Shown here: positions 15,514 through 34,978 of the stretch, piece after piece
Layout of the letters: every line of letters begins with the position of its first letter
Numbering within the stretch: position 1 is the stretch's first letter
Made by a program: the position numbers and the translations under genes
Origin: Pararhodospirillum photometricum DSM 122
GTDB taxonomy: Bacteria; Pseudomonadota; Alphaproteobacteria; Rhodospirillales; Rhodospirillaceae
Length of the DNA stretch: 57,489 bases
Reading direction: 5' to 3'
NCBI RefSeq assembly: GCF_000284415.1
Contig: NC_017059.1
Span: forward strand, 873,449 to 930,937
The notes under the pieces: generated by a model
What the model saw: the letters and a program-made list of their open reading frames with translations, nothing else
What the model was told of the DNA's origin: nothing
Database searches by the model: none

Positions 15514-15658
15514 GGGGGTGTCCTGTCGTTGCTCATCGAAACGTCTCCTGGTCGTTCAAGGGGTTAGGGGACGGGCGGAGTGGGTGTTGCGAGCACCCCT
15601 CCGCCACTACCATCACCAATACCACAGCAACGAGCAATCGTCTCGTTTGGGGGGTACT

Positions 15659-18195: not shown

Positions 18196-18259
18196 ATAAA
18201 GAACGCCGGGAGCGGGAGGCAACCGCACCGAGCAAAACCAAACCTAACTGAGGATGGAT

Positions 18260-19653: not shown

Positions 19654-19978
19654 CCCCCGCTGGCTGGTCCTGCTGCGGGCCGAGGCCGAGCGCAGCTCCA
19701 TCGCCGCCGCCGCCCGGCGGGTCGGTGTCTCGAGGTCGGCCGCCTCGTCCCTCCTGAGTGGCACCTACCCTGCCACCAGCACCGCTGCTATGGCGGCCCG
19801 GGTGTTGGCTGCGCTGGACGTCCGGGTCTGCCCAGGTCTCGGGGGCGAGGTGGCGCCAGAGGTCTGCGCCGACTGGCGAGACAAGGCCTGGGCGTTAGTA
19901 GCAACCAACGGACAGCGGGTGGCGATGTACCGCGCCTGCCGCGCCTGCCCCCACTGGGAGGGCCAAGGCGATGTCTAA
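19646..19978 (+). CDS. HTH DNA-binding protein with cysteine-rich tail
   Basis: A 110-residue protein. The first half is an HTH (RSSIAAAARRVGVSRSAASSLLSGTYPA) of the type found in small phage regulators; the C-terminal half contains CPGLGG, EVCADW and MYRACRACPHW, four cysteines that could bind a metal, similar to short phage-encoded regulators that end in a CxxCP element. Starts within an 8-base overlap and ends in another. Confidence 0.6.
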   Translation: MTDPRWLVLLRAEAERSSIAAAARRVGVSRSAASSLLSGTYPATSTAAMAARVLAALDVRVCPGLGGEVAPEVCADWRDKAWALVATNGQRVAMYRACRACPHWEGQGDV

Positions 19979-20249
19979 CGATCTGCGCCGCACCCTCTCC
20001 CAAGCCTATCACACGCTGGACGACCTCGTCGCCGAGGCCGCCCTCGCACCCGGCGGCGTCACCGTGGTGCCCCTGCCTGCGGGGGAGGCTGTTGCCCTGC
20101 TGTGGGCACTCGGTGACGCTCGCGTGGAGGCCGAGCGGCTGTGGCGCTTGCTGTGCGCTACGGGCCTGCTGGGTGCCGAGCTGGGGCCGCGCGCCGTCGA
20201 GCGGGTCCTGCCACGCGCCATCCCGATCTGGGGGGGCGCCCATGAGTAA
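19971..20249 (+). CDS. hypothetical early phage protein, 92 aa
   Basis: Unrecognised, largely helical by composition (LRRTLSQAYHTLDDLVAEAAL, EAVALLWALGDARVEAERLWRLL as separate helices). No membrane segment or motif. Part of the chain of genes that overlap by 4-17 bases between MuB and gp16. Confidence 0.55.
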   Translation: MSNDLRRTLSQAYHTLDDLVAEAALAPGGVTVVPLPAGEAVALLWALGDARVEAERLWRLLCATGLLGAELGPRAVERVLPRAIPIWGGAHE

Positions 20250-20709
20250 CCCCCCGGCGCTCCACCTCCGCTTGGGCGAGCCCCTCGACCTCCCGACCGA
20301 GGCCGGCGCCCCTCTGTCGGGGACCCTGCGCAGCTACCTCGACCTGGGCCGCTACGTCGTGGCCACGCTCGACACCTCCGCCGGTCGGCGCCAAGCGCTG
20401 CTGGCGCGCGAGCGTGGCGCCCTGCGCGTCCACGCTCACGCCCCGAGCCCAGCCGAGGCCCGGCGCCACGCCGAGGGAGTGCTGGCCGGCCGGCTGGCGT
20501 GCGACGCCCCAGCCCTGGCCCTGGCCGTCCTAGCGTTGACCACCCCCCAGGGTCCCGTCAGCGGACTGCCTGACCTGACGCGAGGGCACGACGCCCTCGA
20601 CGTCATCGCCCAGGACCACCCCGAGCGGCTGCCCGGGGCCCTGCGCGTCCTCACTCTCCTGGCGACCCTGCCGGGAGAGGCTGTGCCTCCGATTATGCAA
20701 GGACACTGA
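20242..20709 (+). CDS. hypothetical early phage protein, 155 aa
   Basis: Unrecognised. N-terminal half is beta-rich (LHLRLGEPLDLP, GTLRSYLDLGRYVVATLD), the C-terminal half helical and Ala/Leu-rich. Start at the ATGAGTAA overlap. One base separates its stop from the DUF3164 gene. Confidence 0.55.
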   Translation: MSNPPALHLRLGEPLDLPTEAGAPLSGTLRSYLDLGRYVVATLDTSAGRRQALLARERGALRVHAHAPSPAEARRHAEGVLAGRLACDAPALALAVLALTTPQGPVSGLPDLTRGHDALDVIAQDHPERLPGALRVLTLLATLPGEAVPPIMQGH

Positions 20710-20710
20710 G

Positions 20711-21328
20711 ATGAGCAACCAAGACACCCCTGCCGGGTATATGCGCGATGCCAAGGGACGTTTGGTGCCCGAGCATCTGGTCAAACCCCTGGACTCGCTA
20801 ATGGATCAGGCCGTGCGCGCCCTGATCGGTCATGCCGAGGCGTTAAGCGCCCAGATTGCTCGGTTCCGTGGCCATTCGTTCGACGATATCGCATCGTTTT
20901 TGTCGATCGCCGCTGACCAATACGGCGCCAAGATCGGCGGCGCCAAGGGCAATATCACCCTGACCAGCTATGACGGCACCCTCAAGGTCCAGGTTGCGGT
21001 AGCGGACCGACTGACGTTTGGCCCCGAGTTGCAGGTCGCCAAGGCGTTGATCGACGAGTGCATTGTGGACTGGAGCAAGGGCGCGCGAGATGAGATCTGC
21101 GCCCTGGTAGAGCACGCCTTCCGGCCCGACAAGGAGGGCCAAGTCAGCCCCGACGCAGTGTTGGCCCTGCGTCGGGTCGAGATCGGCGATGATCGTTGGC
21201 AGCGGGCGATGGAGGCGATCACCGACAGCATCCGCATTGTGGGCAGCAAGAGCTACATCCGGTTCTACCGCCGCGCGAACGCGCAAGCGCCGTGGCAAGC
21301 GATCACCGTCGATTTGGCGTCGGCGTAG
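20711..21328 (+). CDS. DUF3164 family phage protein
   Basis: A 205-residue protein with the family's typical features: AGYMRDAKGRLVPEHLVKP near the start, DIASFLSIAADQYGAKIGGAKGN, ITLTSYDGTLKVQVAVADRL, ALIDECIVDWS, and the end IRIVGSKSYIRFYRR. DUF3164 genes are found in the early/middle region of Mu-like phages; the function is unknown. Confidence 0.85.
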   Translation: MSNQDTPAGYMRDAKGRLVPEHLVKPLDSLMDQAVRALIGHAEALSAQIARFRGHSFDDIASFLSIAADQYGAKIGGAKGNITLTSYDGTLKVQVAVADRLTFGPELQVAKALIDECIVDWSKGARDEICALVEHAFRPDKEGQVSPDAVLALRRVEIGDDRWQRAMEAITDSIRIVGSKSYIRFYRRANAQAPWQAITVDLASA

Positions 21329-21337
21329 GAGGTCCCC

Positions 21338-21595
21338 ATGTCCCACCCCTTTAAGCGCCACCCCCACCTCACTCGCGCCCGGCGCCGCGCTCTGCGGCAA
21401 GCCGCTGCCGCACCCCTCGCCGTCACGCTGACGTCGTCGGGCCACCTGCGGAGCCCCAAGCCCCCCCCAAGTGGAGGGGCTTACGCCCCCGCCACCTTGC
21501 TCGCCCTCATTGAGAGCGGGCTCTTGGCCGATCATCTGGACCGGCTGGTGCTGACGGATGAGGGCCGGGCGGTGCTGGTGGGGAGGGTGCGATGA
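21338..21595 (+). CDS. hypothetical phage protein, 85 aa
   Basis: Unrecognised and basic at its N-terminus (FKRHPHLTRARRRALRQ). C-terminal part ATLLALIESGLLADHLDRLVLTDEGRAVL looks like a winged-helix end, so it may be a small regulator. GGAGG lies eight bases before ATG. Overlaps the next ORF by four bases. Confidence 0.5.
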   Translation: MSHPFKRHPHLTRARRRALRQAAAAPLAVTLTSSGHLRSPKPPPSGGAYAPATLLALIESGLLADHLDRLVLTDEGRAVLVGRVR

Positions 21596-21843
21596 GCGAT
21601 TACCGGAATGCTGCGTCTCGCGTTGCTGCGTCAGTTTGGGTGGAAGTTGGGGGGAGCCTTACTCCCTGCGGGTCCGTCCGTGCCTATGCTCTCTTGTTGG
21701 CTGCTACTGCCCTGATGGCCAAGCAATGCGTACTTGTTGGGGTAAGTAGAGCTGCTTTAGCGGGTCCCCTCTTGGACTTGGTGACCATCATTACTAGTCG
21801 CCCGCCCTGCCCGGAGTTGCAACGTCATGACCTGCCCCGCTGA
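21592..21843 (+). CDS. hypothetical phage protein, 83 aa, possibly membrane-associated
   Basis: Starts in an ATGA overlap and runs 17 bases into gp16. The middle is hydrophobic (VRAYALLLAATALMAKQCVLVGV). Its base composition is less GC-rich than that of its neighbours, suggesting separate acquisition. No family recognised. Confidence 0.45.
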   Translation: MSDYRNAASRVAASVWVEVGGSLTPCGSVRAYALLLAATALMAKQCVLVGVSRAALAGPLLDLVTIITSRPPCPELQRHDLPR

Positions 21844-22267
21844 CGATCTCCCCGCCTTACGCCGCGCCCTCCACGCCGGCGCGCGCACCTTGGGCCTGGA
21901 CGAGGAGGCCAGGCGCGGACTGATGCGCCGGGTGACGGGCCTGGACAGCAGCAAGGACATGTCGGCCGGCCAGCTCCGGGCGGTGCTGGCCGAGTATGAC
22001 CGGCTGCGCGGGCCGGAAGTACGCAAGGCGTGGCGACGGCCGACGAGCGCGCGGGCGGACGTGCGGCTGCTCTTTGGCCTGTGGCGCGGGCTGCACGAGG
22101 CCGGGCTGATCCGCGATGCCTCCCCCCGCGCCTGCCGGGCATGGGTCGAGCGTCAGACCGGCGTCTCTGACCCCGACTGGCTGACGGTGGCGCAGGCCCG
22201 CGCCTGCGCCGAGGCGCTCAAGGCGTGGCGGGCGCGGGGGTGTCCGTCGCAGCCTGAGGACGCATGA
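21827..22267 (+). CDS. Mu gp16-like protein (DUF1018)
   Basis: A 146-residue protein with the family hallmarks: LHAGARTLGLDEEARRGLMRRVTG, SSKDMSAGQLRAVLAEYDRLRG, then LLFGLWRGLHEAGLI and a C-terminal WVERQTGVSDPDWLTVAQARA. Gp16 family proteins of Mu-like phages precede the middle-gene activator; the role is unknown but regulatory functions have been proposed. ATGATG junction with the following gene. Confidence 0.85.
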   Translation: MTCPADDLPALRRALHAGARTLGLDEEARRGLMRRVTGLDSSKDMSAGQLRAVLAEYDRLRGPEVRKAWRRPTSARADVRLLFGLWRGLHEAGLIRDASPRACRAWVERQTGVSDPDWLTVAQARACAEALKAWRARGCPSQPEDA

Positions 22268-22698
22268 TGACCACGCCCTCTTACCGCGACCGCTGGGGGT
22301 ACCTCCCCGCCGTCCTCGTGACGGTGGTGGAGGCGGCTGGCGACGAGGTAATGTTGCGGTTAGTCTCCGCGTGCCGGGGGCGGGAGATTACCGTCCCCGC
22401 GCGCGACGACCACGTTGAGTCCAGTGTTTTGGGTCAGGCCATCGCCGACCCGGTGGCGGCCTATGCCGTCGTGCACGCTTTGCGGGCGCAGGGCTATAGC
22501 CGCGTGGCTGTCCCTATGTTAGGGCACGCCTGGGCGCTCCAACGGCGGCGCCACATCGAGCAGCTCCGGCGGGATGGCGCCACCATCGCCGCCATCGCCC
22601 AGCGCGTCGGCATGACCGAGCGGGGGGTGTGGGCTGCCTTGGCTCGGGCCAGGGCGGCCCGGCCCGATAGCCGTCAGCTCACCCTGTTTGGCGACTAA
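22264..22698 (+). CDS. Mor/C-like middle transcription activator
   Basis: A 144-residue protein in the position of Mu mor, between gp16 and the lysis genes. C-terminal HTH: RRRHIEQLRRDGATIAAIAQRVGMTERGVWAALARARA (residues about 98-135, given as two parts of one motif: RRDGATIAAIAQRVG and MTERGVWAALARA). In Mu, Mor activates the middle promoter. Similarity rests mainly on the HTH and synteny, so a generic HTH protein is an alternative. The palindrome at 22705-22723 right after its stop is a candidate target. Confidence 0.6.
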   Translation: MMTTPSYRDRWGYLPAVLVTVVEAAGDEVMLRLVSACRGREITVPARDDHVESSVLGQAIADPVAAYAVVHALRAQGYSRVAVPMLGHAWALQRRRHIEQLRRDGATIAAIAQRVGMTERGVWAALARARAARPDSRQLTLFGD

Positions 22699-22704
22699 CC
22701 CCCG

Positions 22705-22723
22705 CCCCCTGAACGGCTTCAGG
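22705..22723 (+). promoter_or_regulatory. palindromic element upstream of the lysis/head operon
   Basis: CCCCCTGAACGGCTTCAGG; stem CCTGAA/TTCAGG with loop CGGC. The same 19 bases recur at 29792-29810. Both copies end about 57-59 bases before the start of a late gene. TATAGA at about 22762 could be a -10 element for the downstream operon. Confidence 0.5.
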
Positions 22724-22779
22724 CTCAGTCCGACACCGCCACCCACGCACACTCCCCTTGGTATAGAGGAGGGGGTGTC

Positions 22780-23340
22780 ATGGCCGACGACCAAGTCTGG
22801 GCCGCCGCACTGGCGGCGGTGCTCGCCCACGAGGGGGGCTACGTCAATGACCCTCGCGACCCTGGAGGCGCGACAAAATGGGGGGTCTCGCTGCGCTGGT
22901 TGCGCGCCCTTGAAGGCGGTGCTGGCGACACCGACGGCGACGGCGATGTGGACGCCGACGACGTCAAGGCGCTGACGCCGACCCAGGCTGGCGCCCTGTA
23001 TTATAAGGAGTGGTGGGTACCCCTGCGGTGCGCGGCAATGCCTCCTCCCATCGCCATCAAACTCTTTGACACGGCCGTCAATGTCGGCCCGCGCCCCGCG
23101 ATCACGATCTTGCAGACCGCTCTCAACGTGACCGGGGGACTGCCGCCGGTCGCGGTGGACGGCAAGGTAGGGCCGGAGACGCTGGGCAAGGCCCAAGGCA
23201 TCTTGCCGATCAGGATTGCCGATGTGGTGGCGGATATGTGCGTCGCCCAAGAGGCCTATTACCGCACCCTGGTCGCTCGCATACCGGCCCGCGCTGTCTA
23301 CCTCATAGGCTGGACGCGCCGCGCGCGCTGGCGCCCTTAG
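22780..23340 (+). CDS. endolysin, glycoside hydrolase family 108 type with EF-hand-like loop
   Basis: A 186-residue lysozyme-like enzyme. The GH108 catalytic Glu lies in LAHEGGYVNDPRDPGGATKWGVS near residue 20; the C-terminal half has the peptidoglycan-binding PG_binding_3 pattern (KLFDTAVNVGPRPAITILQ, VDGKVGPETL). Between them is GDTDGDGDVDADDVKAL, a DxDxDGxVxxxD calcium-binding loop. No signal peptide, so release needs the holin encoded next. GAGG precedes ATG. Confidence 0.88.
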   Translation: MADDQVWAAALAAVLAHEGGYVNDPRDPGGATKWGVSLRWLRALEGGAGDTDGDGDVDADDVKALTPTQAGALYYKEWWVPLRCAAMPPPIAIKLFDTAVNVGPRPAITILQTALNVTGGLPPVAVDGKVGPETLGKAQGILPIRIADVVADMCVAQEAYYRTLVARIPARAVYLIGWTRRARWRP

Positions 23341-23356
23341 GTGTGAGGAGAGTCCA

Positions 23357-23974
23357 ATGCTCCCCCTGATCCCCATTGCCCTGGGCATCGCCCAGGCCGC
23401 CGCGCCCTGGCTAGTCTCTAGGGTCTTGGGTGACGAGGCCGGGCTTGTTGCAAGCCGGGTGGTCCAGGCCGCCCAAGGGACCACAGGTGCCGCGTCGCCC
23501 GATGAGGCTCTTGCAGCCGTCCGCGCCACCCCCGAGACCGCCGCCCGAGTGCAAGAGGCCTTAGCGCGGCTCGAAGCTGACTTGGCCCGCGAGGACACGG
23601 CCCGACTCCAAGCCATCAACGAGACGGCCCGCACCGAGAGTCGGTCCGAAGACCCTTATGTCCGGCGCTGGCGCCCGACTTGGGGGTACGTCACCGCCGC
23701 CACCTGGGCGGTCCAGGGCGTGGGGGTGCTTGCCGCCCTAGTCGGTGCCGTGGTCGCCACCCTCGAGGGCAAGACCGCCGCCGTCACGGCGCTCCTGACC
23801 GGGGCGTCAGAGCTGGCGGGCGCACTGACGCTCCAGTGGGGTGTGGCGTTGGCGGTGCTGGGCGTGGCTGTCCAGCAGCGCACCCGTGACAAAGAGGCCG
23901 CCCAGGGCTCGCCGCCGCCCACGATGTGGGAGGTGGTGGGAGGAGTCCTGACCCGCAAAGGGGGGAAGGGATGA
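23357..23974 (+). CDS. holin, 3TM type (GTA_holin_3TM-like)
   Basis: A 205-residue membrane protein. Features of this holin group: an N-terminal hydrophobic stretch PLIPIALGIAQAAAPWLVSRVLG, a long charged helix, the conserved SEDPYVRRWRPTWGYVTAATWAVQ, and two further helices (GVGVLAALVGAVVATL and GALTLQWGVALAVLGVAVQQ). Permits the endolysin to reach the wall. Follows the endolysin by 16 bases and overlaps gp25. Confidence 0.8.
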   Translation: MLPLIPIALGIAQAAAPWLVSRVLGDEAGLVASRVVQAAQGTTGAASPDEALAAVRATPETAARVQEALARLEADLAREDTARLQAINETARTESRSEDPYVRRWRPTWGYVTAATWAVQGVGVLAALVGAVVATLEGKTAAVTALLTGASELAGALTLQWGVALAVLGVAVQQRTRDKEAAQGSPPPTMWEVVGGVLTRKGGKG

Positions 23975-24390
23975 GCATGCACGAAGCATGGGACCTACTG
24001 ACTCAGGCGGTGCCGCTCGTCTCCTTGGGGACAACGGTCCTCGGGGGGGCGGTGCTCTGGCGTCTGTCTCGGGTATTTGTGACGCGTGAAGCGCTGGACC
24101 GCCACGCCGAACACGAAGCGGCGTGGCGAGGTACGCACGACGCCCGGTACGAAGAGGTGGCGGAGCGCCTCGACCAAGGGGCCCGGCGATTTGCTGTCCT
24201 GGAGGCAACGATCAACGCGCTCCCTTCGCAAGCGGATGTCCGTGCTCTGGGCCAGCAAGTGGCCGACCTGCGTGCCGATGTGGCGCGGCTGGCCGGTCAA
24301 CTGGAGGGGGCCCAGGGTCTGACCGCTCGGCTGGAGAGGGTCGTTGATATGCTGACCGAGCACCACTTGCAGCAGGAGCGCCGGCCATGA
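23971..24390 (+). CDS. Mu gp25-like protein (DUF2730)
   Basis: A 139-residue protein with one N-terminal membrane helix (LVSLGTTVLGGAVLWRL) and a long coiled coil with heptad-like Leu/Val spacing (RFAVLEATINALPS, ALGQQVADLRADVARLAGQLEG). Matches the DUF2730/gp25 family of Mu-like phages located between lysis and terminase genes; a spanin-like or lysis-related role is only a guess. ATGA overlap at the start and at the end. Confidence 0.78.
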   Translation: MSMHEAWDLLTQAVPLVSLGTTVLGGAVLWRLSRVFVTREALDRHAEHEAAWRGTHDARYEEVAERLDQGARRFAVLEATINALPSQADVRALGQQVADLRADVARLAGQLEGAQGLTARLERVVDMLTEHHLQQERRP

Positions 24391-24689
24391 CCCTGGAAGA
24401 GCGTGTGCGCGAGGACCGCCGCTTGTGTGTGCTGCGCCTCCTTGCCGAGGATGCCGACTACACCCTCAACACCTCCATTTTGCAGTCCGCCTTGACCGAT
24501 CTGGGCCACGGCATCGCGCGCGACGTGGTCGAAAGCGATGCGGCTTGGCTGGAGGAGCAGGGTTTAGTATCCCGAGAAAGTCTCGGCGGCGGTAAGGTCA
24601 TTGTGGTGCGCCTGCTTGGGAGGGGGCTCGACGTGGCCCAGGGCAAGGCGACGGTGCCCGGCGTCAAGCGCCCTAGGCCCGGAGGCTGA
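24387..24689 (+). CDS. Mu gp26-like winged-helix protein
   Basis: A 100-residue protein: LEERVREDRRLCVLRLLAED, YTLNTSILQSALTDLGHGIARDVVESDAAWLEEQGLV (split across residues 25-62) and KVIVVRLLGRGLDVAQGK. This is the pattern of the gp26 / VpaChn25-type proteins that precede the small terminase gene in Mu-like phages. Likely DNA-binding; function unknown. Confidence 0.78.
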   Translation: MTLEERVREDRRLCVLRLLAEDADYTLNTSILQSALTDLGHGIARDVVESDAAWLEEQGLVSRESLGGGKVIVVRLLGRGLDVAQGKATVPGVKRPRPGG

Positions 24690-24693
24690 CTGG

Positions 24694-25245
24694 ATGCCCC
24701 GGAAATCGCGCATTCAAACCGACTTGTCGGCGGAGGATTTGGAGGCCTTCAACCGTCTGCTGGCGGGTGGACGTTTGACCATTGACGACCTGCAAGACTG
24801 GCTGGAGGCACGGGGCTACGACATCAGTCGGTCGGCGGTCGGGCGCCATGTCAAATCCTACTCCCAAGTCGCGGAGCGCCTGCGCCAGTCGCGCGAGGTG
24901 GTCGAGGCTTTGGCCCGTGAACTACCCGATGCCGCCACCCAAGGCAAGCAAGGCCGTCTTTTGGTCGAGATGACCAGAGGGCTCGCCTTCGACCTTTTGG
25001 AGCGCATGCAAGCCGAGGGCGACGCCGCGCCCAAAGATATCCAGGCCCTGGGCAAAGCGTTCGCCGAGTTGGGCCGGGCGGCGAGGTTGGATCAGGACTT
25101 TGAAGAGAAGGTGGCCAAACTCAAGGAACAGACGCGCCGGGAGTATGAGGCGGAGCTAAAGCGCAAGATCGAGGAGGCGGCCGGCAAGGGCGGTTTCGAC
25201 GCCGCCGCCGCCGAGGAGGCGCGGCGCATTCTTGGGTTTGCGTGA
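24694..25245 (+). CDS. Mu gp27-like small terminase subunit (DUF3486)
   Basis: A 183-residue protein. The N-terminal half has the HTH-like DDLQDWLEARGYDISRSAVGRHVK, typical of DUF3486; the C-terminal half is a long charged helix ending in RREYEAELKRKIEEAAG. Recognises phage DNA for packaging with the following large subunit. GGAGG 12 bases before the ATG; TGATG overlap with gp28. Confidence 0.83.
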   Translation: MPRKSRIQTDLSAEDLEAFNRLLAGGRLTIDDLQDWLEARGYDISRSAVGRHVKSYSQVAERLRQSREVVEALARELPDAATQGKQGRLLVEMTRGLAFDLLERMQAEGDAAPKDIQALGKAFAELGRAARLDQDFEEKVAKLKEQTRREYEAELKRKIEEAAGKGGFDAAAAEEARRILGFA

Positions 25246-26642
25246 TGGCTGCGCCACCACTGATCGCGTTCCTGCCCTATCAGCGGCAATGGCTGGAAGA
25301 CCGCGCCCGCTTCAAAATCGGGATGTTCGCGCGCCAGACAGGCAAAACATACACCACCTGCGCCGAAATTGTGGACGACTGCATCCAAGCCGAAATCAAG
25401 GGGCGGCGCGTGCGATGGGTCATTCTGTCGCGCGGCGAGCGGCAGGCGGCCGAGGCCATGGATGAGGCTATTAAGCCATTCTGCAAAGCCTTTTACGCTG
25501 TTTACCGCACGGTGTTGGCGGGTCGGCAGGCCCCCACGTTCTCGACTGAGGCGTTCGTAGTAGACAAGCCGGAAGGTGGCAGCGTGACCTACAAGGCACT
25601 TGAGGTGCGCTTCCCGTCAGGGTCGCGGATCACCGCCCTACCCGCCAATCCCGATACGGCACGCGGCTACTCAGCCAATGTCTTCTTAGACGAATTCGCC
25701 TTCCATAAAGACAGTCGCGAGATCTGGCGAGCCTTGTTCCCGGTGGTGTCCAAGGCTGGGCTGCGCCTGCGCATCACGTCAACGCCCAACGGTAAGGCCA
25801 ACAAATTTTACGAGCTTTGGACGGCCCAGGACACGGGATGGAGCCGGCATGAGGTGTCGTTGAGGCAGGCTGTCACCGAGGGTCTGGACCGGGACATTGA
25901 GGCCCTGCGGGCGGCCTTGAACGATGACGACGCTTGGGCGCAGGAGTACGAATTACAGTTTCTTGAGGAGGCCGGGGCGTGGCTGTCCTTTGACTTGATT
26001 ACGGCCGTTGAACACGCCGACGCCGGTCAAGCCACTGCCTACCAGGGCGGCGACGTGTACATCGGCAATGACATTGCGCGGCGCCGGGACCTTTGGGTGG
26101 CGTGGGTCCTGGAGCGGGTGGGGGATGTGCTTTGGACGCGCGAGATCGTCGAGTGCAAAGGCATCAGCTTCGCGGAACAAGACGCTATCCTGGATGACCT
26201 TGTTGCCCGCTACCGGGTGCGGCGGATCGCCATGGACCAGACCGGCATGGGCGAAAAGCCGGTGGAAGACGCCAAGCGGCGGTACGGTAGCTTGCGGGTT
26301 GAAGGTGTGCTGATGACCGGCGCGACACCCCTGAATGTTGCTACGACCGCCCGGCAGGCGTTCGAGGATCGCAAGATCCGCATCCCAGCAGGCAACGTCG
26401 TGCTGCGCGCCGACCTGCACAAGATCAAAAAAGTGGTGGGAGCGACTGGCGCACCGCGCCTGTTGGCTGACCGGGATGGAGCGGGTCACGCTGACCGGGC
26501 GTGGGCCTGTTTCATGGCTCTAGCCGCTGCCGCTGGAGGGGGCATTACCTACGCCTACGACCCCGCTCCCCCACCCGCCCCCACGCCAGACGGTGACGAC
26601 CAAGACGACGCCCCCGGCCTGTTTGGCCCGGGGACTTATTAA
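25245..26642 (+). CDS. Mu gp28-like large terminase subunit
   Basis: A 465-residue packaging motor. ATPase part: adenine-binding LPYQRQWLED, Walker A-like ARQTGKT (residues 29-35), Walker B NVFLDEFAFH, coupling motif RITSTPNGKAN. Nuclease part: first Asp in VYIGNDIARRRD and later acidic site MDQTGMGEKPVED and DGAGHADRAW. All key residues appear intact. A GTG four bases upstream, overlapping the previous stop, is an alternative start. Confidence 0.9.
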   Translation: MAAPPLIAFLPYQRQWLEDRARFKIGMFARQTGKTYTTCAEIVDDCIQAEIKGRRVRWVILSRGERQAAEAMDEAIKPFCKAFYAVYRTVLAGRQAPTFSTEAFVVDKPEGGSVTYKALEVRFPSGSRITALPANPDTARGYSANVFLDEFAFHKDSREIWRALFPVVSKAGLRLRITSTPNGKANKFYELWTAQDTGWSRHEVSLRQAVTEGLDRDIEALRAALNDDDAWAQEYELQFLEEAGAWLSFDLITAVEHADAGQATAYQGGDVYIGNDIARRRDLWVAWVLERVGDVLWTREIVECKGISFAEQDAILDDLVARYRVRRIAMDQTGMGEKPVEDAKRRYGSLRVEGVLMTGATPLNVATTARQAFEDRKIRIPAGNVVLRADLHKIKKVVGATGAPRLLADRDGAGHADRAWACFMALAAAAGGGITYAYDPAPPPAPTPDGDDQDDAPGLFGPGTY

Positions 26643-26654
26643 CAAGGAGTCGCC

Positions 26655-28199
26655 ATGCCTGCGACGATTTACGGCCCCGATGGCGAGCCGATCCGGCGCC
26701 GAGACCTGCAAGACGAGATCAGCGGCCCGACGCTGACGGGCGTGCGCTCGCCCTGGCGTGAGGCCATGGCCTCTGACGTGACGCCGCGCAAGGTGGCGCG
26801 GCTGCTGCGTGCTGCCGACCAAGGTGATGGCGCCGCCTATCTAGCCCTGGCCGACGACATTGAGGAGCGCGACCTGCACTACGCGGCGGTGCTCGGGGTG
26901 CGCAAGCGCCAAGTCTCCCAGCTCCCGATCGCGGTCGAGGCCGCCAGCGATGCGCGCGACGACGTAGCCGCTGCCGACTTGGTGCGGGAGTGGCTGGCCC
27001 GCGATGAGTTGGAGGATGACCTATTCGACTTGCTCGATGCGCTGGGCAAGGGCTACGCCGTGGCGGAGCTGCTATGGGAGCTGTCGGCGGGAGGGCAGCG
27101 CCTGTGGCCCCGGCTAGAGGCCCGCGACCCCGCTTGGTTTCGCTTCGACCGCCGCGACGGCCGCACCCCCCTGCTCCTCGACGATGGTGGGCAAGAGCGC
27201 CCGTTACCGCCTTGGAAGTTCGTAATCCACCGAGGGCGTTTCAAAACCGGAATCCCCTTGCGCTCCGGCTTGGCTCGGGCCGCCGCTTGGGCGTGGTGCT
27301 TCAAGAGTTTCGATCTTAAGGCGTGGCTGATCCTCTGCGAGGTCTATGGCCACCCCTTGCGTCTTGGTAAGTACGACACCGGCGCCAGCGAGAAGGACAA
27401 AGACACGCTGATGCGCGCAGTGCGAGGCATCGCCCAGGACACTGCCGCGATCATCCCCCAGGGGGTGGAGATCGAGTTTATCGACACCAAGATTACGTCG
27501 AGCGGCCAGTTGTATGAGCGGTTGGTCACGTACTGGGACCAGCAGGTCTCCAAGTTAGTGCTCGGGCAGGTGGGCACTACCGACGCCATCGCCGGGGGGT
27601 ACGCCGTAGGCAAGGTGCATGACGGCGTGCGCGAGGACATTGAGCGCGCGGACGCCAAGGCGTTGGCTGGGACGCTTAACCGAGACGCGGTGCGTCCCTT
27701 GGTGGATATCAACCTCGGACCGCGTGACGCATACCCCCGCGTCCGCATCGGGCGGACTGAGGAGACCGACCTTGCCCAGCTGACCGGAGCCCTCCAGGTC
27801 CTAGTCCCTCTGGGGCTGCGGGTCAGTGCGTCCGAAGTGCGCGATAAGCTCGGGTTGGCCGACCCCGATGCTGACGAGGCGGTGTTGACGCCCCCGGCGC
27901 CCGTGCTGACGGCGGCCCACTCCCAAAAGCCACCCCTCCCCACCTCCACCGCTCCCCGAGATAGCTCCGACCGAGCGGTGGCGCAGCTTTTGGAGGCGAG
28001 CACCCCCACCCTCCAGGGCTGGCTCGGCGAGATCCGTGCCCTGGTCGAGGCTTCGCCGGACCTCGAAACAGCGATCGACCGCTTGTCAGCCCTGAGACCG
28101 GACGCGTCCCTTGAGGCTCTGCAACGCCTGATGCAAGACGCCTTGCTGGCCCAGGCTCTGGGAGGAGCGGCCGAGGTCCCGGGAGGTGGGGATGCCTGA
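26655..28199 (+). CDS. Mu gp29-like portal protein (DUF935)
   Basis: A 514-residue portal that forms the DNA entry ring. DUF935 features: ARLLRAADQGDGAAYLALADDIEERD, HYAAVLGVRKRQVSQLP, VAELLWELS, KFVIHRGRFKTGIPLRSGLARAAAWAWCFK and GQVGTTDAIAGGYAVGKVHDGV (listed as short separate motifs along the chain). Complete relative to the family. AAGGAG 7 bases before ATG. Overlaps gp30. Confidence 0.9.
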   Translation: MPATIYGPDGEPIRRRDLQDEISGPTLTGVRSPWREAMASDVTPRKVARLLRAADQGDGAAYLALADDIEERDLHYAAVLGVRKRQVSQLPIAVEAASDARDDVAAADLVREWLARDELEDDLFDLLDALGKGYAVAELLWELSAGGQRLWPRLEARDPAWFRFDRRDGRTPLLLDDGGQERPLPPWKFVIHRGRFKTGIPLRSGLARAAAWAWCFKSFDLKAWLILCEVYGHPLRLGKYDTGASEKDKDTLMRAVRGIAQDTAAIIPQGVEIEFIDTKITSSGQLYERLVTYWDQQVSKLVLGQVGTTDAIAGGYAVGKVHDGVREDIERADAKALAGTLNRDAVRPLVDINLGPRDAYPRVRIGRTEETDLAQLTGALQVLVPLGLRVSASEVRDKLGLADPDADEAVLTPPAPVLTAAHSQKPPLPTSTAPRDSSDRAVAQLLEASTPTLQGWLGEIRALVEASPDLETAIDRLSALRPDASLEALQRLMQDALLAQALGGAAEVPGGGDA

Positions 28200-29517
28200 G
28201 GTGTCCGATGGGCTTCCCTTCAAGGAGGCGATCCGCTTTTTCGAGTCAAAGACTCGCCTGCCAACCCGCGCCTATACCGACATCAAAGGCGGTGCCCACG
28301 CCCGCAGTTTCACCATGGCCGGCGCCACGCGCGATGCTTTGTTGTCAGACATGCACCGTGCCTTGATTGCCACATTCAAGTCTGGGCACACCAAGGACGA
28401 TTTTTTGGAGGATTTCGACGCCATCGTTGCGCATCATGGCTGGGATTTTTATGGCGAGCGACGGTGGCGGGCGGCGCTGATCTACGACACGAACCTCCGC
28501 ATGGCCCACGCGGCGGGCCGCTGGGAGCAAATCCAAGCCCAGGCAGACCGTGAGGCGCAGGCCGGACGGCCCCTCTACTTGCGTTATGTGGCGCTGTTGG
28601 ACGGTCACACCCGACCCGAGCACGCAGCATGGCACGGGGTCACGCTGCCGCACGATCACCCGTGGTGGCGGGCGCATTATCCGCCGAACGGCTGGAACTG
28701 CCGGTGTGACGTCCAATCCCTGACCGAGCGCGACCTCAAGCGCTACGGCATCACCCCGACGCCTGAGGACCAAGTCCCGCCCACCGAGTTGGTGCCGCGC
28801 CAAGTGCGACTGGCGGACGGGTCCTATGAGACCTGGGAGACCCCGCGCGGCATCGACCCGGGGTTTGACTATAACGTCGGCCAGAGCTGGCTTGAGGGCG
28901 CGGTGCCTCCGCCGCTGTCAGGGCCACTGCCGCCACCCGCCGCGCCCCTGCGGCCCGCCCCAGACCTCCCCCCGTTGCCTCCCCCGCGCCCGGTGCCGCC
29001 TGAGGTTACCACACCGCTCGCGGATGGGCTGGGCGACGAGGCTTATATCAAGGCGTTTTTGGGCGTGTTTGGGGGTGATATCGGCAAGCCCGTGCCTTTT
29101 CGGGATGCCGTCGGGAATTTGCTGGCGATCGGGGAGGAGTTGTTTATTGATCGCAGGGCAACTTCGGCCGCGCGGAAGATATCTCCTGACGCGCCGCCTG
29201 TGTGGAAGGTCGAGAAAAATGGCCGGCACCTGATTTTACCGCTACTGGCCTATGCCTTAAAAGACCCCGACGAAATCTGGCTGGACTGGTTCGAGGCCAA
29301 GGGTGGCTCGGTATTGCGGCGGCGTTACCTGCGCCGCTTCGAGGGGCTGTTGCTCCCCCCTGAAGCGCCCATGACAGCCGGTGCTGTTGCGGCGTTTGAG
29401 TGGACCCATCTTGGGTGGACGGGCACCACCATCCACCCCTCGGCCCGCAACCAACAAACAGAAGGCCAGCGACACGGTGTCTTGCTATGGTGCAAGAGGA
29501 TAGATGGCGGCAGGTAA
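28192..29517 (+). CDS. MuF (gp30)-like head morphogenesis protein fused to a PBECR-type nuclease domain
   Basis: A 441-residue protein. Residues about 1-215 are the MuF head-morphogenesis domain, with TNLRMAHAAGRWEQIQ, LDGHTRPEHAAWHG and the zinc-like PPNGWNCRCDVQSL. A Pro-rich linker (about 235-275, PPLSGPLPPPAAPLRPAP) leads to a C-terminal domain: YIKAFLGVFGGDIGKPVPFRDA, LAIGEELFIDR, WKVEKNGRHLILPLLAYALKDPDEIWLDW, RRRYLRRFEG, then GWTGTT. This resembles the PBECR (phage Barnase-EndoU-ColicinE5/D-RelE-like) RNase fold known as a C-terminal toxin of MuF proteins. Such a domain could be injected with DNA or act in the host cell. Starts at ATG with GGGAGGTGGGG upstream. Confidence 0.82.
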   Translation: MPEVSDGLPFKEAIRFFESKTRLPTRAYTDIKGGAHARSFTMAGATRDALLSDMHRALIATFKSGHTKDDFLEDFDAIVAHHGWDFYGERRWRAALIYDTNLRMAHAAGRWEQIQAQADREAQAGRPLYLRYVALLDGHTRPEHAAWHGVTLPHDHPWWRAHYPPNGWNCRCDVQSLTERDLKRYGITPTPEDQVPPTELVPRQVRLADGSYETWETPRGIDPGFDYNVGQSWLEGAVPPPLSGPLPPPAAPLRPAPDLPPLPPPRPVPPEVTTPLADGLGDEAYIKAFLGVFGGDIGKPVPFRDAVGNLLAIGEELFIDRRATSAARKISPDAPPVWKVEKNGRHLILPLLAYALKDPDEIWLDWFEAKGGSVLRRRYLRRFEGLLLPPEAPMTAGAVAAFEWTHLGWTGTTIHPSARNQQTEGQRHGVLLWCKRIDGGR

Positions 29518-29868
29518 ATTGGCCCGGCGGTGCTGCCCCCGTGCGGGCCAAATCGCCCCCCTAGGGCAGCCGACAGCGGCTTCGGCATAGGGCGATCTCT
29601 GGGGATCAATATACCGCACCACCGCCCGGCGGGCAATACCGGGTGTCCCCCTCAAAAAATCCGTCCCTGGCGCGTGCGCCCCCTTTGAAGTGGGGTTGCC
29701 TAGCCTCCCGGTCTGAGGCGCACACAGCCCCCGTCAGACCCCCGTCAGCGGCGACGTTATCGCCCTCCTCCCCCCCTCCTCCCCGTGACCACCCCCTGAA
29801 CGGCTTCAGGGCTCCCCCACCTCCCGCCCCCCGCTAGTGTCGGCTCACCGCTACCAGGGAGCCGACCC
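29518..29868. other. 351-base intergenic region with two inverted repeats
   Basis: Contains an inverted repeat GGCCCG-n17-CGGGCC at 29521-29549 directly after gp30 and the 19-base palindrome at 29792-29810. Mu's gpG (gp31) normally lies here; no gpG-like frame is seen. The region probably holds a terminator-like structure and the promoter for protease I. Confidence 0.5.
29792..29810 (+). promoter_or_regulatory. palindromic element upstream of the capsid operon
   Basis: Second copy of CCCCCTGAACGGCTTCAGG, 59 bases before the protease I start. Identical to 22705-22723. Confidence 0.5.
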
Positions 29869-30891
29869 ATGCCCCGTGCCGTCTGCCAAGTGAGCCTGCC
29901 CGACCAGAGCACTCCCCCGGAGTGGGTGCACCTACTGCCCATGGGGACGGTGCGCGGGGTGGACGGGCGCGGCCCTTATGTGCTGCGCGACCAAGCCCAT
30001 GCCGCCCAGGTGATTGCTGCCAGTGGCACCGGCGTGGATCTGCCCATTGATTATGACCACGACGCCATTTTGCCCAACGGGCGCCGGCCCATTGCAGCGG
30101 GCTGGATCAAGGCCCTGGACGCCCGACCCGATGGGATCTGGGGGAGGGTCGAGTGGACCACGGCGGCGGCGGCGCACCTGACCGCCCGCGAGTACCGCTA
30201 CCTCTCTCCTGTGATTGACCACACCCGCTCCGGCGACGTGCTGCGCTTGCGCATGGCCGGCCTCACCAACACCCCCAACCTGTCCGCCCTCACGGCCCTT
30301 GCCTCACAGGAGCAACTGGACGCCATGGATCTCCTTGTCCCGATCCGGGCCGCGCTCGGCCTGCCCGATAGCGCCACACCCGACCAGATCACCGCCGCCG
30401 CCGCCCAGAGCCGTCAGGCAGCGCAGACACTGACGGGGGTGGCGCGGGCGCTCGGTCTCCCCGACGCTGCCACGCCCGACCAGATCACCGCCGCCACCCA
30501 GGCGCGGACCTCGCCCCCCGCCGCTTCCAACCCGCCCGACCCCAGTCAGTACGTGCCAATGAGCCAGTTTACCGCCTTGTCCGCCGATTTGGCCGCCATG
30601 CGCCAGCGGCTGGATACCGACGCGGCCGGCCAAGCGGTCACGGCCGCCCAGGCGCAGGGCAAGGTGACGCCGGCTATGCGCGACTGGGCTCTGGGCTATG
30701 CCGCCAAGGACCCACAGGGGTTTACCGCTTGGTGCAGCGCGGCGCCGGTCTTGGTGGCCCCAGGCACGCTTGCGCCGTCCGGCCCGGCCCCGGCCGCTCC
30801 CGGGGTCGGCGACCAGGCGGTTACGGCGGTGTGCTCTCAGCTTGGCCTCGACCCCAAGGCGCTCACCACCCCCGCCACCAAGGAGGCGTAA
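29869..30891 (+). CDS. Mu gpI-like head maturation protease/scaffold
   Basis: A 340-residue protein. The protease part (about residues 1-150) has PLPIDYDHDAIL-type segment DLPIDYDHDAILPNGRRP, AAGWIKALDARPDGIWGRVEWT, EYRYLSPVIDH and MAGLTNTPNL, as in Mu gpI. The rest is an Ala/Gln-rich helical scaffold. It contains an imperfect direct repeat: ALGLPDSATPDQITAAAAQ and ALGLPDAATPDQITAATQ, about 40 residues apart. ATG after CAGGGAGCCG. Confidence 0.87.
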   Translation: MPRAVCQVSLPDQSTPPEWVHLLPMGTVRGVDGRGPYVLRDQAHAAQVIAASGTGVDLPIDYDHDAILPNGRRPIAAGWIKALDARPDGIWGRVEWTTAAAAHLTAREYRYLSPVIDHTRSGDVLRLRMAGLTNTPNLSALTALASQEQLDAMDLLVPIRAALGLPDSATPDQITAAAAQSRQAAQTLTGVARALGLPDAATPDQITAATQARTSPPAASNPPDPSQYVPMSQFTALSADLAAMRQRLDTDAAGQAVTAAQAQGKVTPAMRDWALGYAAKDPQGFTAWCSAAPVLVAPGTLAPSGPAPAAPGVGDQAVTAVCSQLGLDPKALTTPATKEA

Positions 30892-30894
30892 GTC

Positions 30895-31284
30895 ATGGCT
30901 GCCCTCACCTCTGACCGCGACACGCCCGCCCGCGACGGCCGGCTGTTTGTTCACCCCGTCAAGGCGGGTGTGGCGATCTACGCCGGGGCTTTGGTCATGC
31001 TTGATGCGACCGGCGCCGCCGTGCCGGCGAGTGCCGCCACCACCCTCAAGCCGGCGGGCCGAGCGGCTTACGCCATGACGGGTGGCTCGGCTGACGGCGA
31101 CGCATCGGTCACGGTCGAGCGCGGGTGTTTCCGGTGGGGCAATGCCGGCGACATCACCCGCACCCACACCGGGTCCGCCGCTTACGCCGTCGATGACCAG
31201 ACCGTCTCCGCCACCGCGACCGGACGGTCAGCGTGTGGTGTTATCCGCGACATCGACGCCTTAGGCGTGTGGGTGGAGGTCTGA
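30895..31284 (+). CDS. DUF2190 family capsid-associated protein (Mu gpJ position)
   Basis: A 129-residue protein with the DUF2190 layout: VHPVKAGVAIYAGALVMLDATG, AAVPASAATTLKPAGRA, SVTVERGCFRWGN, and the end CGVIRDIDALGVWVEV. These small beta-barrel proteins decorate or stabilise the head in many tailed phages. Three bases after protease I, with AAGGAGG before its ATG. Confidence 0.83.
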   Translation: MAALTSDRDTPARDGRLFVHPVKAGVAIYAGALVMLDATGAAVPASAATTLKPAGRAAYAMTGGSADGDASVTVERGCFRWGNAGDITRTHTGSAAYAVDDQTVSATATGRSACGVIRDIDALGVWVEV

Positions 31285-31287
31285 CCC

Positions 31288-31668
31288 ATGATTATCAGCC
31301 AAGCCAGCCTGTCCGCTATCACGACCGGTTTTCGGGTGCTGTACCAGGGAGCCTTTGATGCGGCGCCGTCGGATTGGGACAAGATCGCCACCGAGGTGCC
31401 CAGCACCACCCGCCAGCAGACCTATGCCTGGCTGGGCACCACGACCCGCTTCCGGGAGTGGGTCGGCGATCGTGTGTACCAGAACCTGGGCGCGCACCAG
31501 TATGCGATTCCCAACAAGTCGTGGGAAAACAGCATCGAAGTAAACCGTGACGACATCGAGGACGATCAGCTTGGTGTCTACAGGCCACTGGTCACTCAAT
31601 TGGCGCAAGACGCCAAGACTCACCCCGACGAGCTGGTGTTAATGGTGAGGGCGGCCAGGTCGGCGTAG
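31288..31668 (+). pseudogene. truncated Mu gpT-like major capsid protein
   Basis: The first ~113 codons match the N-terminus of the Mu major head protein (ISQASLSAITTGFRVLYQGAFD, SDWDKIATEVPSTT, YAWLGTTTRFREWVGDRVYQNL, KSWENSIEVNRDDIEDDQLGVYR, TQLAQDAKTHPDELV as separate motifs). The family is about 300 residues; here similarity stops after HPDELV at about 31637, where the sequence changes to the antisense of a lambda-type head protein gene. The last ~13 codons are junk. No capsid can be built from this product. Confidence 0.85.
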
Positions 31669-31994
31669 GCCGCCGTTTTGGCCGTGGCGTCCTGGCCTGA
31701 GCCAAAGACGAGGGCCGCCTTGGCAACCTCAGCGAGGCGCACGACAGCCACCCCGTGAGCATCCCCGCCCGAAGCGTCCACAGAGGCAAACAAAATGCCA
31801 GCAGCGGCTTGGGTGCCATCGGAAGCGCCGTTGTCGTAAGCGGCGTATTTGCCCGAGGCCGTGACCTTACCCAGCACAGCGCCGGCCTGGAGATCCTGGC
31901 CGGATACGACAGTAATGCGCTCACGGGAAATGGAGCCATTGCCCTCGGAGACGAGGAACGCGCCGGCATGCAGGGTTTCAGTGAGAGTTGTCAT
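31620..31994 (-). CDS. lambda gpD-like head decoration protein, altered C-terminus
   Basis: A 124-residue protein: LTETLHAGAFLVSEGNGSISRERITVVSG in two parts, QDLQAGAVLGKVTASGKYAAYDNGASDGTQAAAGILF, and VVRLAEVAKAALVFG. Decoration proteins trimerise on the capsid. Its expected end (about ALAALGI-like) is replaced after DLAAL by TINTSSSG, where the frame enters antisense gpT sequence. Possibly still foldable, but there is no capsid to decorate. Confidence 0.78.
   Translation of the reverse strand: MTTLTETLHAGAFLVSEGNGSISRERITVVSGQDLQAGAVLGKVTASGKYAAYDNGASDGTQAAAGILFASVDASGGDAHGVAVVRLAEVAKAALVFGSGQDATAKTAAYADLAALTINTSSSG
31632..31650. other. mosaic junction between Mu-like and lambda-like phage DNA
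   Basis: Left of this point the plus strand codes Mu gpT; right of it the minus strand codes a lambda gpD-like protein. Both genes lose their natural 3' ends here, so this is a recombination or deletion joint (or an assembly join), not a normal gene border. Confidence 0.7.
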
Positions 31995-32003
31995 GATGCC
32001 TCC

Positions 32004-32465
32004 TTACCCGGCAAAGCCAGCCAGCTTATTGGCCCGCGCAATGGCGTCGGCGTGGGAGTGTGTCGCGCCACCTCCAGCGGCCACTCCCGCCGCCGCTTCG
32101 GGCGTCAGCGTGTTGACGATGGCCGTGGCCGTGCTATCGGCGGCGAGGCGATCCCACAACGCCTTGCGCGCCGCCTCGGGCGACGTGCCGGCCGCCAGGA
32201 ACTCGCGCTCCAGCGCCTGTGCATCGAGCGACGGGCTCAGGCGCTTGGCCGTGGCGCAGGTCGCCCTGATCTCGCCGGTCGCATCGAGCTTCGCCTTAAC
32301 CTCGGCGACACTCAGGCCGGCCGCCATGAAGCCGTCCGCCAGGGCCGGAGCGCCGGCGGCGGTGCACATCTTGGCGATGGTCGCGCATCGATCACGCTCG
32401 GCGGCCAGGGGGTCGGGGGTGGCGCTGGCAGCGGCCGGCGTCGGCGGTGTGCCGTTTTCCGACAT
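32004..32465 (-). CDS. nested scaffold protein from an internal start (Nu3-like)
   Basis: In-frame ATG at 32465 within the protease gene begins MSENGTPPTP and gives a 153-residue Ala-rich helical protein. AGGAG lies nine bases upstream on the minus strand, unusually good for an internal Met codon. Lambda makes its scaffold Nu3 in the same way from inside C. Inference from layout and ribosome site. Confidence 0.5.
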   Translation of the reverse strand: MSENGTPPTPAAASATPDPLAAERDRCATIAKMCTAAGAPALADGFMAAGLSVAEVKAKLDATGEIRATCATAKRLSPSLDAQALEREFLAAGTSPEAARKALWDRLAADSTATAIVNTLTPEAAAGVAAGGGATHSHADAIARANKLAGFAG

Positions 32466-33149
32466 ATTGGGGGTCTCCTGGGGGTGGACGGTTTGGGGGG
32501 CGGGAGTCGTCATGAGGGCACGCGCCGGCCACTTGTTCGCCGACGCCACCGCGGCAATGCCCTTGGGCACGTGTGCGTACCGATGCCAGCCGCCAAAGGC
32601 GACCGGGTCCGCAGGCTTGTTGTCATTGGTTGCGCCATCGGCGCGGTCGGCGAACCCTTGGGCCACGGCCTCTTCAGGCCCCAACCAGACTTCACGCTTC
32701 ATCAGGGCGCGCATTTCGGTCACGGGCTTGCCGGTCTTGTCGGCGTAGACCTGAGCATAAGCGTCGCCCAGCGCGTCTAGGGCATCAGCGGATGCGCGGT
32801 GCTCTTCGGCGGTCCCCCACGTGCACCCGCTGGGGTCGTGGATCATCATGACAGCGCCAGGCCGCATCACCGTCTTGCCCGCCATCGCCAACAAGGAAGC
32901 CGCAGAAGCCGCCCAGCCCTCGATCACGATTTCAACCGCGCCCCGGTGCATCGACAAGGCGGAGTGGATGGCGGCGCCCTCGGTTGCCAGCCCGCCGCCG
33001 CTATTCAGGCGCACCCTGATGTCCGTGGCACGTCCGACCTGAGCCAGAGCGGCCAGCACATCGGCGAAGGTGAAGCAATCATCCTCCTCCCAGAGCCGGC
33101 CGACCGTGCCAGTCAGCACGATCTCGGTACCATTCACCACGCACGCCAT
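32004..33149 (-). CDS. lambda gpC-like prohead protease (ClpP/S14 type) with C-terminal scaffold region
   Basis: A 381-residue protein. Residues about 1-190 form a ClpP-like serine protease: LNSGGGLATEGAAIHSAL, catalytic Ser in EGWAASAASLLAMAG, catalytic His in AVMMIHDPSG, then DKTGKPVTEMRALMKREVWLG. The C-terminal part is an Ala-rich helical scaffold. GTG/ATG start overlaps the portal stop by one base. As in lambda C/Nu3, an internal in-frame start with its own ribosome site lies near codon 229. Confidence 0.85.
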   Translation of the reverse strand: MACVVNGTEIVLTGTVGRLWEEDDCFTFADVLAALAQVGRATDIRVRLNSGGGLATEGAAIHSALSMHRGAVEIVIEGWAASAASLLAMAGKTVMRPGAVMMIHDPSGCTWGTAEEHRASADALDALGDAYAQVYADKTGKPVTEMRALMKREVWLGPEEAVAQGFADRADGATNDNKPADPVAFGGWHRYAHVPKGIAAVASANKWPARALMTTPAPQTVHPQETPNMSENGTPPTPAAASATPDPLAAERDRCATIAKMCTAAGAPALADGFMAAGLSVAEVKAKLDATGEIRATCATAKRLSPSLDAQALEREFLAAGTSPEAARKALWDRLAADSTATAIVNTLTPEAAAGVAAGGGATHSHADAIARANKLAGFAG

Positions 33150-34618
33150 CAGACGCCCTCCGTCTCTGTCGTCTTTGTCGGGTCGCTCACCGCGCGACGC
33201 CCGTCGCTGTCGTAGGACAGACCAACCGCATCGGCGCGAGCGTTGTCGGCCGCCTGTTCCGCGTCGATTTGCTCCGCGTCATAGCCCTGCTCGCTGACCA
33301 CCTCGGCCCGGCTCTTGAAGCCGTTGCGCACCGCCATTTGCTGCGACTGCACGTCCTGGACCGGGTGAATATAGCTCCAGCCCTGCGGCACCCACTTGAC
33401 CCGCAACAGGTCGCGTTCGGTCATGCTGCGCGGGGGTCGGACAGCGCCCGACAAAACGGCCGCCGCCATCCATTGGCGATGCGTCGGGCGGCACATTTGG
33501 AAAACCGCGAGGTGGTGCTGCCACGCCTGGCAGCGGCGGCGGAACTCATTGACGGAGGCCCGGAAAGTACGGTCGTTGACTTGGCTGTAATCGCCGGTCA
33601 ACTGCTCGTACAGAACCCCCGCCGCCGAAGCCACGAGGCGCCGTTGCGCGCGCAAAAAGACCTCGTAATTCCCACCGACATCAACGGGCGCCGTGAACTC
33701 GACATCCTCGCCCGGCTCCAGGTCTTGCATGGTGCCAGGCTCCAAGGACACATGCCCGATCCCGTCCTCGATCTCAGCGCCACCACCCCAGGCTTCGGCC
33801 AGATCCTCAGGCGTCATGCCCTCGGGTACCGGCCGGCGGCGGAAGCCGACGAACATGGCGGCAATCTGCTTGCGCTTCAGCTCGGCGTCGTCGTACTGGG
33901 CCAGTTCGTTCAGCTTCACCAGAGCGCGCGTCAGCCACGGCTCACCCCGAACCTGCCCGGGGCGGCGCACCTGCATCAGGTGGAAAACCTCGCTTGCGGG
34001 GACGCGCACCGGTAATCCGGCCTGCATACGCGGATTGGTGCCGTCGTAGGGGTGCTCGCGGTAAAACCAGTAAGCGGTGCGCGACCCGAACGGCGTGAAC
34101 TCGACACCCGAGATGATGCTGTTGGCGCCGTTCATCTCCGACTTTTCAGCGGGGCAAAACTCGCCCTCAAGGACCTGGATTTGCAGAGGCACGTCCAAGC
34201 CATCTTCGGGTCGGCGCAGTCGGAAGCGGCCAAAGGCGTCGCCTCCCTCAATCATCGACCGCACGGCCAAGGCCTGGAGGCCGTAAAAGTCCAGTTGCCC
34301 GGCCGGGTCGGCCTCGTCCGTCCAGTCCAGCCATAGGGCCGCCAAATCCTTGTTCAATCCCGCGTCCGATGTTGCGAACTGAGGCTTGATCCCGGTGCCG
34401 ATGACGTTGGTCACAGCCACGTCGATGGCGGCATCGGCGAGAGGGTCGTTGCGCACCGCATCGCGCGAGCGGTTGCGCAAGGTCGGGAGGCTGGCCGCTG
34501 GCGCGTTTGGCCCACCATTCACCCCGCCCCAGGAACGAGAACGCCGCCCTGTTGAGGTGGCGTCATAGGAGGCGGTGAAGGCACGCCACGCGGCCTTGGT
34601 GCGGCGAAGGAGGCTCAA
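33149..34618 (-). CDS. lambda-type phage portal protein (gpB family)
   Basis: A 489-residue portal: LPTLRNRSRDAVRNDPLADAAIDVAVTNVIGTGIKPQ (family opening in two motifs, RSRDAVRNDPLADAAID and TNVIGTGIKPQ), GGDAFGRFRLRR, QVLEGEFCP, ISGVEFTPFGSRTAYWFYREHP, RVPASEVFHLMQVRRPGQVRGEPWL, and DYSQVNDRTFRASVNEFRR. Complete relative to the family. Unrelated in sequence to the Mu gp29-like portal at 26.7 kb, so two different portal types occur in one element. Start overlaps gpW by four bases. Confidence 0.88.
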   Translation of the reverse strand: MSLLRRTKAAWRAFTASYDATSTGRRSRSWGGVNGGPNAPAASLPTLRNRSRDAVRNDPLADAAIDVAVTNVIGTGIKPQFATSDAGLNKDLAALWLDWTDEADPAGQLDFYGLQALAVRSMIEGGDAFGRFRLRRPEDGLDVPLQIQVLEGEFCPAEKSEMNGANSIISGVEFTPFGSRTAYWFYREHPYDGTNPRMQAGLPVRVPASEVFHLMQVRRPGQVRGEPWLTRALVKLNELAQYDDAELKRKQIAAMFVGFRRRPVPEGMTPEDLAEAWGGGAEIEDGIGHVSLEPGTMQDLEPGEDVEFTAPVDVGGNYEVFLRAQRRLVASAAGVLYEQLTGDYSQVNDRTFRASVNEFRRRCQAWQHHLAVFQMCRPTHRQWMAAAVLSGAVRPPRSMTERDLLRVKWVPQGWSYIHPVQDVQSQQMAVRNGFKSRAEVVSEQGYDAEQIDAEQAADNARADAVGLSYDSDGRRAVSDPTKTTETEGV

Positions 34619-34830
34619 AGCCCGGATCCTCCGTAAAAGCGCACCGTGCGCACACGTTTCACCGACTGGAGGCGGCCGATCTCCGCCTCAATCTCCCGGA
34701 TGATCGCGTCCTGGCCGCTGATTCGATACGACACCGACGATCCATCGGCATAACTCATCTGACTAACCAGCGACCGCCGAATGTTCCGCGCCTCGGCAAG
34801 CTGCGCTTCCAACTCTTCAAGCGTTGCCAT
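34615..34830 (-). CDS. gpW-like head-tail joining protein
   Basis: A 71-residue protein, LEELEAQLAEARNIRRSLVSQ helix, YADGSSVSYRI beta-hairpin, DAIIREIEAEIGRLQ helix, as in lambda gpW and FII-type connectors between portal and tail. ATG at 34830 with AGGTG upstream; overlaps the portal start. Confidence 0.75.
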   Translation of the reverse strand: MATLEELEAQLAEARNIRRSLVSQMSYADGSSVSYRISGQDAIIREIEAEIGRLQSVKRVRTVRFYGGSGL

Positions 34831-34834
34831 CAAA

Positions 34835-34978
34835 TCACCTATTCATCCAGTTCGAGCGCGCCATCGGCCGAACAAACTGCGCGTGCATTTCCATTGCGCG
34901 CCAAGCGTCGGGGTCACCGTGCCTGACAGCGTGGCGCACGAGCCCCTCAAAAGCTTCGTCGGCAGGGGGGCTGTCTTC
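34835..34978 (-). pseudogene. 3' fragment of a phage gene (probably large terminase subunit)
   Basis: A minus-strand frame of about 47 codons ending at 34835, five bases before gp[23 protein letters not shown] and EMHAQFVRPMARSNWMNR are plausible protein sequence. In lambda order the gene before W is terminase gpA, so this is inferred to be its C-terminus. It is cut off where pdxJ coding sequence begins. Confidence 0.5.

Follow-up and report, generated by a model that had tools for sequence, protein, structure and literature searches.

The head operon of Mu-like prophages includes a protease and the major head protein gpT, and in lambda-type phages the head genes usually stand in the order terminase, portal, protease, decoration, major capsid protein. 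Prophages and insertion sequences (IS) are common points of rearrangement, and genome misassembly with unmerged contig ends is a known general kind of error. The window analysed here, a stretch of 57,489 bp, corresponds to positions 873449-930937 of the one-contig, 3,876,289-bp genome of Pararhodospirillum photometricum DSM 122 (coordinates on this contig are marked C1, all others are those of the window). Two head-gene clusters meet tail to tail in it, as had been described from the sequence; the joint, placed closely at about 31637 by the original prediction, is read here as 31640. The left cluster resembles the Mu-like head operon in that terminase, portal phrog_113, minor head protein phrog_220, protease phrog_328 and gpT (PF10124) follow in succession, but it is cut inside gpT, and a complete gpT lies elsewhere. 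The genes of the right cluster belong to the lambda-type head module, the order of which is restored by overlaps, whereas here the module is spread over C1:2805, 905-908, 2983-2984 and 2432 kb. With misassembled genomes in which contig ends were left unmerged, the locus shares near-identical, read-length duplicates that stop at joints, and genes and repeats that are cut there; it differs in that the record is a single contig and the joints look like real sequence. The joint is almost certainly an artefact of the assembly, the chromosome record being a string of contigs, many of which were misordered and butted together. The features concerned are collected in Table 1.

Table 1. Features at and around the joint (window coordinates unless marked C1)
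Feature	Position	Strand	Remarks
Contig-like block c0	13275..31640	+	Mu-like transposase, late genes, head genes up to gpT codon 117
Terminase subunits, Mu-like side	24694-25245 and 25245-26642		PHROGs
Portal phrog_113	26655-28199		PHROGs
Head protease phrog_328	29869-30891		PHROGs
Overlap segment 1	31189..31640	+	452 bp, 100%; holds gpT start
Truncated gpT ORF, 126 aa	31288..31668	+	true to codon 117, then crosses the joint
Joint, almost certainly false	31640..31640	.	T is the sole base common to both sides
Decoration protein ORF phrog_49	31620-31994	-	antisense 3' end at the joint; native end lost
Overlap segment 2	31640..32019	-	380 bp, 100%; holds most of the decoration gene
Contig-like block c3, 3,325 bp	31640..34964	-	decoration, head maturation protease, portal, 71-aa gene
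Head protease phrog_94	32004-33149	-	PHROGs
Portal phrog_21	33149-34456	-	PHROGs
Host pdxJ without first codons	34965..35637	+	abuts block c3
Block c1, 3,840 bp	C1:3170291-3166452		holds whole gpT; ends inside another ORF
Block c2, 960 bp	C1:2983345-2984304		breaks off within the major capsid gene

For either side of the joint, a second copy with the true continuation exists elsewhere in the genome. Overlap segment 1, to the left, is identical to C1:3170291-3169840, and overlap segment 2, to the right, is identical to C1:2983724-2983345. The identity of both second copies stops at the joint, and the bases common to the two sides at the junctions inspected amount to 0-1 bp. Since the whole gpT is found at the first of these second copies and the decoration gene with its own 3' end and stop codon at the other, both genes are present in the genome and neither has been lost. 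Block c0 is duplicated at its other end as well, where positions 13275-13764 are identical to C1:2860651-2860162 (490 bp, 100%).

The left side carries a Mu transposase (Mu-transpos_C and HTH_Tnp_Mu_1 of Pfam, positions 16093-18195) together with Mu-type head genes including gpT, which identifies it as a Mu-like prophage; a DNA transposition protein (phrog_296) and an endolysin were also assigned by PHROGs and Pfam. Of the Mu-like_gpT profile (PF10124), the gpT ORF of the window matches no more than positions 1-111 of 289, and of phrog_371 it matches positions 2-121 of 303. The claim that its family match breaks off before its own end is thereby confirmed, but about 38-40% of the profile is kept, not one third. 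The search of the genome for the missing 3' part, which had been recommended, led to a whole gpT at C1:3169299-3170192, with 297 aa and a match to all of PF10124 (1-289 of 289). The gene starts within overlap segment 1, the second copy of which is the start of the whole gene, and the joint falls at residue 117. The last 388 bp of block c1 recur at 100% at C1:2161693-2162080, where the ORF broken at the end of the block continues in frame. This large ORF, crossing from block c1 to C1:2161 kb, had no match in PHROGs or Pfam, the small ORF that follows it had none in Pfam, and no Mu-like tail genes were identified by family beyond block c1. The absence of tail genes from the element, noted earlier, held in a scan of 19 of its window proteins, a part of all its ORFs, in which none matched a PHROGs tail family and two had no match of any kind. 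Block c1 is flanked by a cut SpoIIE-domain gene on one side and by 501 bp of an IS630-like element, assigned by a match below the curated cut-off, on the other. A single N within this block (C1:3168704-3169105) gives an X in a 133-aa protein, as might be expected from thin coverage or from contig ends of poor quality.

On the right side, the original prediction had correctly recognised the antisense 3' end of a decoration gene deprived of its native terminus, as well as two portal types and two head proteases in one element. The 71-aa gene of block c3 had no PHROG match. A 98% copy of the last 340 bp of block c2 lies at C1:2432365-2432704, and the broken major capsid gene is continued there; of its two parts, one covers positions 18-197 and the other 91-357 of phrog_29. 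Block c2 is flanked by 474 bp of an IS5-type element and by the host der (EngA) gene. At the far end of block c3, positions 34547-34964 are identical to C1:2805868-2805451 (418 bp, 100%), and beyond this overlap, at C1:2805 kb, lies the end of a terminase large subunit (phrog_15), a second terminase in answer to the proposed search for one of lambda type. Overlaps thus link the four places into the gene order usual for lambda-type phages, from terminase through portal, protease and decoration to major capsid protein.

Two separate prophages appear to have been cut into pieces, the contigs of which were wrongly ordered and their overlapping ends kept twice. Contig ends would reach about one read length (mostly 340-520 bp) into the true neighbour or into a repeat, and an overlap left unmerged would therefore be present twice in the record. 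At position 31640, a contig with the front of the Mu-like prophage, ending inside gpT, would have been butted against a small contig of the lambda-type head module. The true continuation of the Mu-like prophage would be C1:3170291-3166452 and then C1:2162080 downwards; the lambda-type prophage would continue on one side through C1:2983345-2984304 into C1:2432365 upwards, and on the terminase side at C1:2805868. The record shows duplicated ends, in-frame continuations, an intact gpT elsewhere, a split host gene and halved insertion sequences. We infer that this pattern was made by the contig ends of a read-based assembly and not by a cellular process, with read length setting the size of the overlaps.

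Host genes are also cut at joints. The start of pdxJ, missing from the copy that abuts block c3, was found at C1:1250.8 kb, 342 kb away, with an overlap of 35 bp at 97%. The profile PF03740 is matched over positions 20-234 of 234 by the pdxJ of the window and over 1-26 of 234 at the distant place. For comparison, the loci of 80 relatives were fetched by means of lepB, and the counts rest on the 53 of them with a pdxJ match. The N-terminus was in frame in 49 of the 53 (47 by pattern and 2 by eye), and in the other four the pdxJ match starts at most 31 bases from the start of the locus, which is a contig edge. The second host gene, encoding a response regulator with a SpoIIE domain, stops at C1:3166451 with the SpoIIE profile matched over 1-90 of 192.

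The IS5-type element (NF033581), about 1.29 kb in length, carries the same sign across the genome. Among 40 scored matches out of 118 candidates, the copies at 99-100% comprised one complete, nine left-only and nine right-only elements, a count from which pieces diverged to 92% or less were omitted, as was an 88-base family of flanking sequence past the end of the IS. The fragments among these scored matches retain 419-887 bp, with 12 of 18 at 400-520 bp and 6 of 18 at 619-887 bp. Short IS pieces may have escaped the search, and chance figures calculated for uniform cut points are a guide at most and were given no weight. The cuts fall roughly a read length from the left or the right end, about equally often, and such halving from both directions is what contigs ending about a read length into a repeat would produce. 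In one place a left and a right part adjoin with 366 bp missing between them; in another, after the left part at C1:3416516 come 520 bp that are present again at C1:2892291. At C1:3576666-3580139, a left end retains 484 bp and then gives way to a phage portal gene (phrog_12), so another prophage may be split there. Single undetermined bases (N) lie near an IS joint at C1:2058460-2061937 and would fit the same causes as the N of block c1.

The weak points of a misjoin are that the overlap of block c2 reaches 98% and not 100%, that the pdxJ overlap is only 35 bp long, that 6 of the 18 IS fragments exceed 520 bp, and that the large ORF crossing from block c1 to C1:2161 kb lacks a PHROG or Pfam match. 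A real rearrangement of the chromosome is nevertheless very improbable. In such an event, recent staggered multi-break repair or serial template switching would have rearranged two prophages together with host genes and many IS copies, and filled-in ends would have left exact or near-exact copies of 340-500 bp at each new junction. The exactness of both duplicates at the joint in the window and the 0-1 bp common at junctions would suit break repair or template switching, and prophages and IS elements are frequent sites of rearrangement. However, many independent events with duplicates of similar length would be required, and these would have had to halve one IS element in both directions (nine and nine among the scored matches), to cut the host pdxJ and still to have retained every piece that was looked for. 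Two other readings were considered and rejected. The transfer of a single 186.9-kb segment (C1:2983345-3170291) was dropped because of the joints at C1:2984304 and C1:3166452, the displaced pieces measuring only 960 and 3,840 bp. In a three-way staggered-break event with three duplicates, the third segment would be the 501 bp at C1:3170291-3170791, but this is the IS630-like part; because a fuller IS630-like copy is present at C1:2981435, the segment is a repeat and not a third duplicate.

The first of the two options in the original prediction was a chimeric, defective prophage. A true chimera, the product of recombination of a Mu-like with a lambda-type phage, is hardly credible. Two portals and two head proteases do stand tail to tail in one stretch, as such a chimera would have them, but the 3' part of gpT, the native end of the decoration gene, the remainder of the major capsid gene and a second terminase are found elsewhere, each joined to its counterpart by an overlap of 340-452 bp at 98-100%, with gpT complete at C1:3170 kb. 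The parts are not confined to the joint but have continuations of their own elsewhere, and the far side of the lambda-type piece meets the middle of the host pdxJ. The viral relatives of gpT speak for a misjoin and against a chimera. Their loci, about 4-10 kb each, were fetched with an 84-aa query spanning the joint, and 80 of the 597 found were kept. The alignment of gpT across the joint in all 80 is favoured by this selection, since the query itself spans the joint. The lambda-type decoration, protease or portal gene was matched in none of the 80 loci, each viewed over at most about 10 kb, so the neighbourhood of the window is absent from these relatives. With the 161-aa gene of block c1 left out, the gene order running from the left part of the window into block c1 was found in 55 of 55 testable loci; with this gene included, only 31 of 71 loci were colinear. 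Among 58 relatives, 40 carry the 161-aa gene upstream of gpT and 18 carry it downstream, and it therefore gives no vote on the proposed order.

That the assembler merged two prophages into one by way of a common repeat has next to no likelihood. This reading has in its favour the presence of two prophages and the origin of the error in assembly, but no repeat stands at the joint, where a single base is common and tens of bases would be needed, and the pieces are displaced, not collapsed. The suspicion of an assembly origin voiced from the sequence is thus supported in kind, but what happened would be the misordering, end to end, of contigs from separate prophages.

With the misjoin as the preferred explanation, the tail-to-tail phage fusion at 31640 is very probably not a real feature. 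Gene order in this genome record is not to be trusted, since it contains prophages, IS elements and at least one housekeeping gene in severed, displaced pieces, and any chimeric or defective prophage, truncated IS element or broken gene claimed from the record may be false. Unmerged read-length duplicates that end at a joint offer an easy test for other old genome records, as do equal numbers of left and right IS halves and a host gene found in two places.

As a control, the region 35100-55000 of the window was compared with the genome; among 40 scored of 945 candidates, no second copy at 98% or more over at least 200 bp was found, and the matches longer than 200 bp comprised a single one at 64% and, at 74-89%, those of a repeat family. 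Judged from the sequence, a further joint is probable near position 13275. It is graded as probable only, because the left duplicate, with its start at a tRNA-Pro gene, may have arisen naturally. This duplicate, with the tRNA-Pro gene and downstream sequence (13027-13285, 259 bp), recurs at C1:2322477 at 98%, and 62 bp from the surroundings of 13027-13764 are also found at C1:202386. Apart from the vicinity of 13275, the closest long match to positions 1-13400 has a length of 276 bp and an identity of 96% and includes a tRNA-His gene; this gene and its flank (2028-2303) recur at C1:3652763-3653046, as a natural copy or another joint. At positions 45513-45804 (C1:918961-919252) lies an interspersed, near-palindromic repeat of about 290 bases, without an Rfam match at gathering score and with a DNA fold z-score of -11.9. 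Dozens of whole or partial copies of it, at 71-97%, occur on both strands throughout the genome, parts of them near positions 1838-1977.
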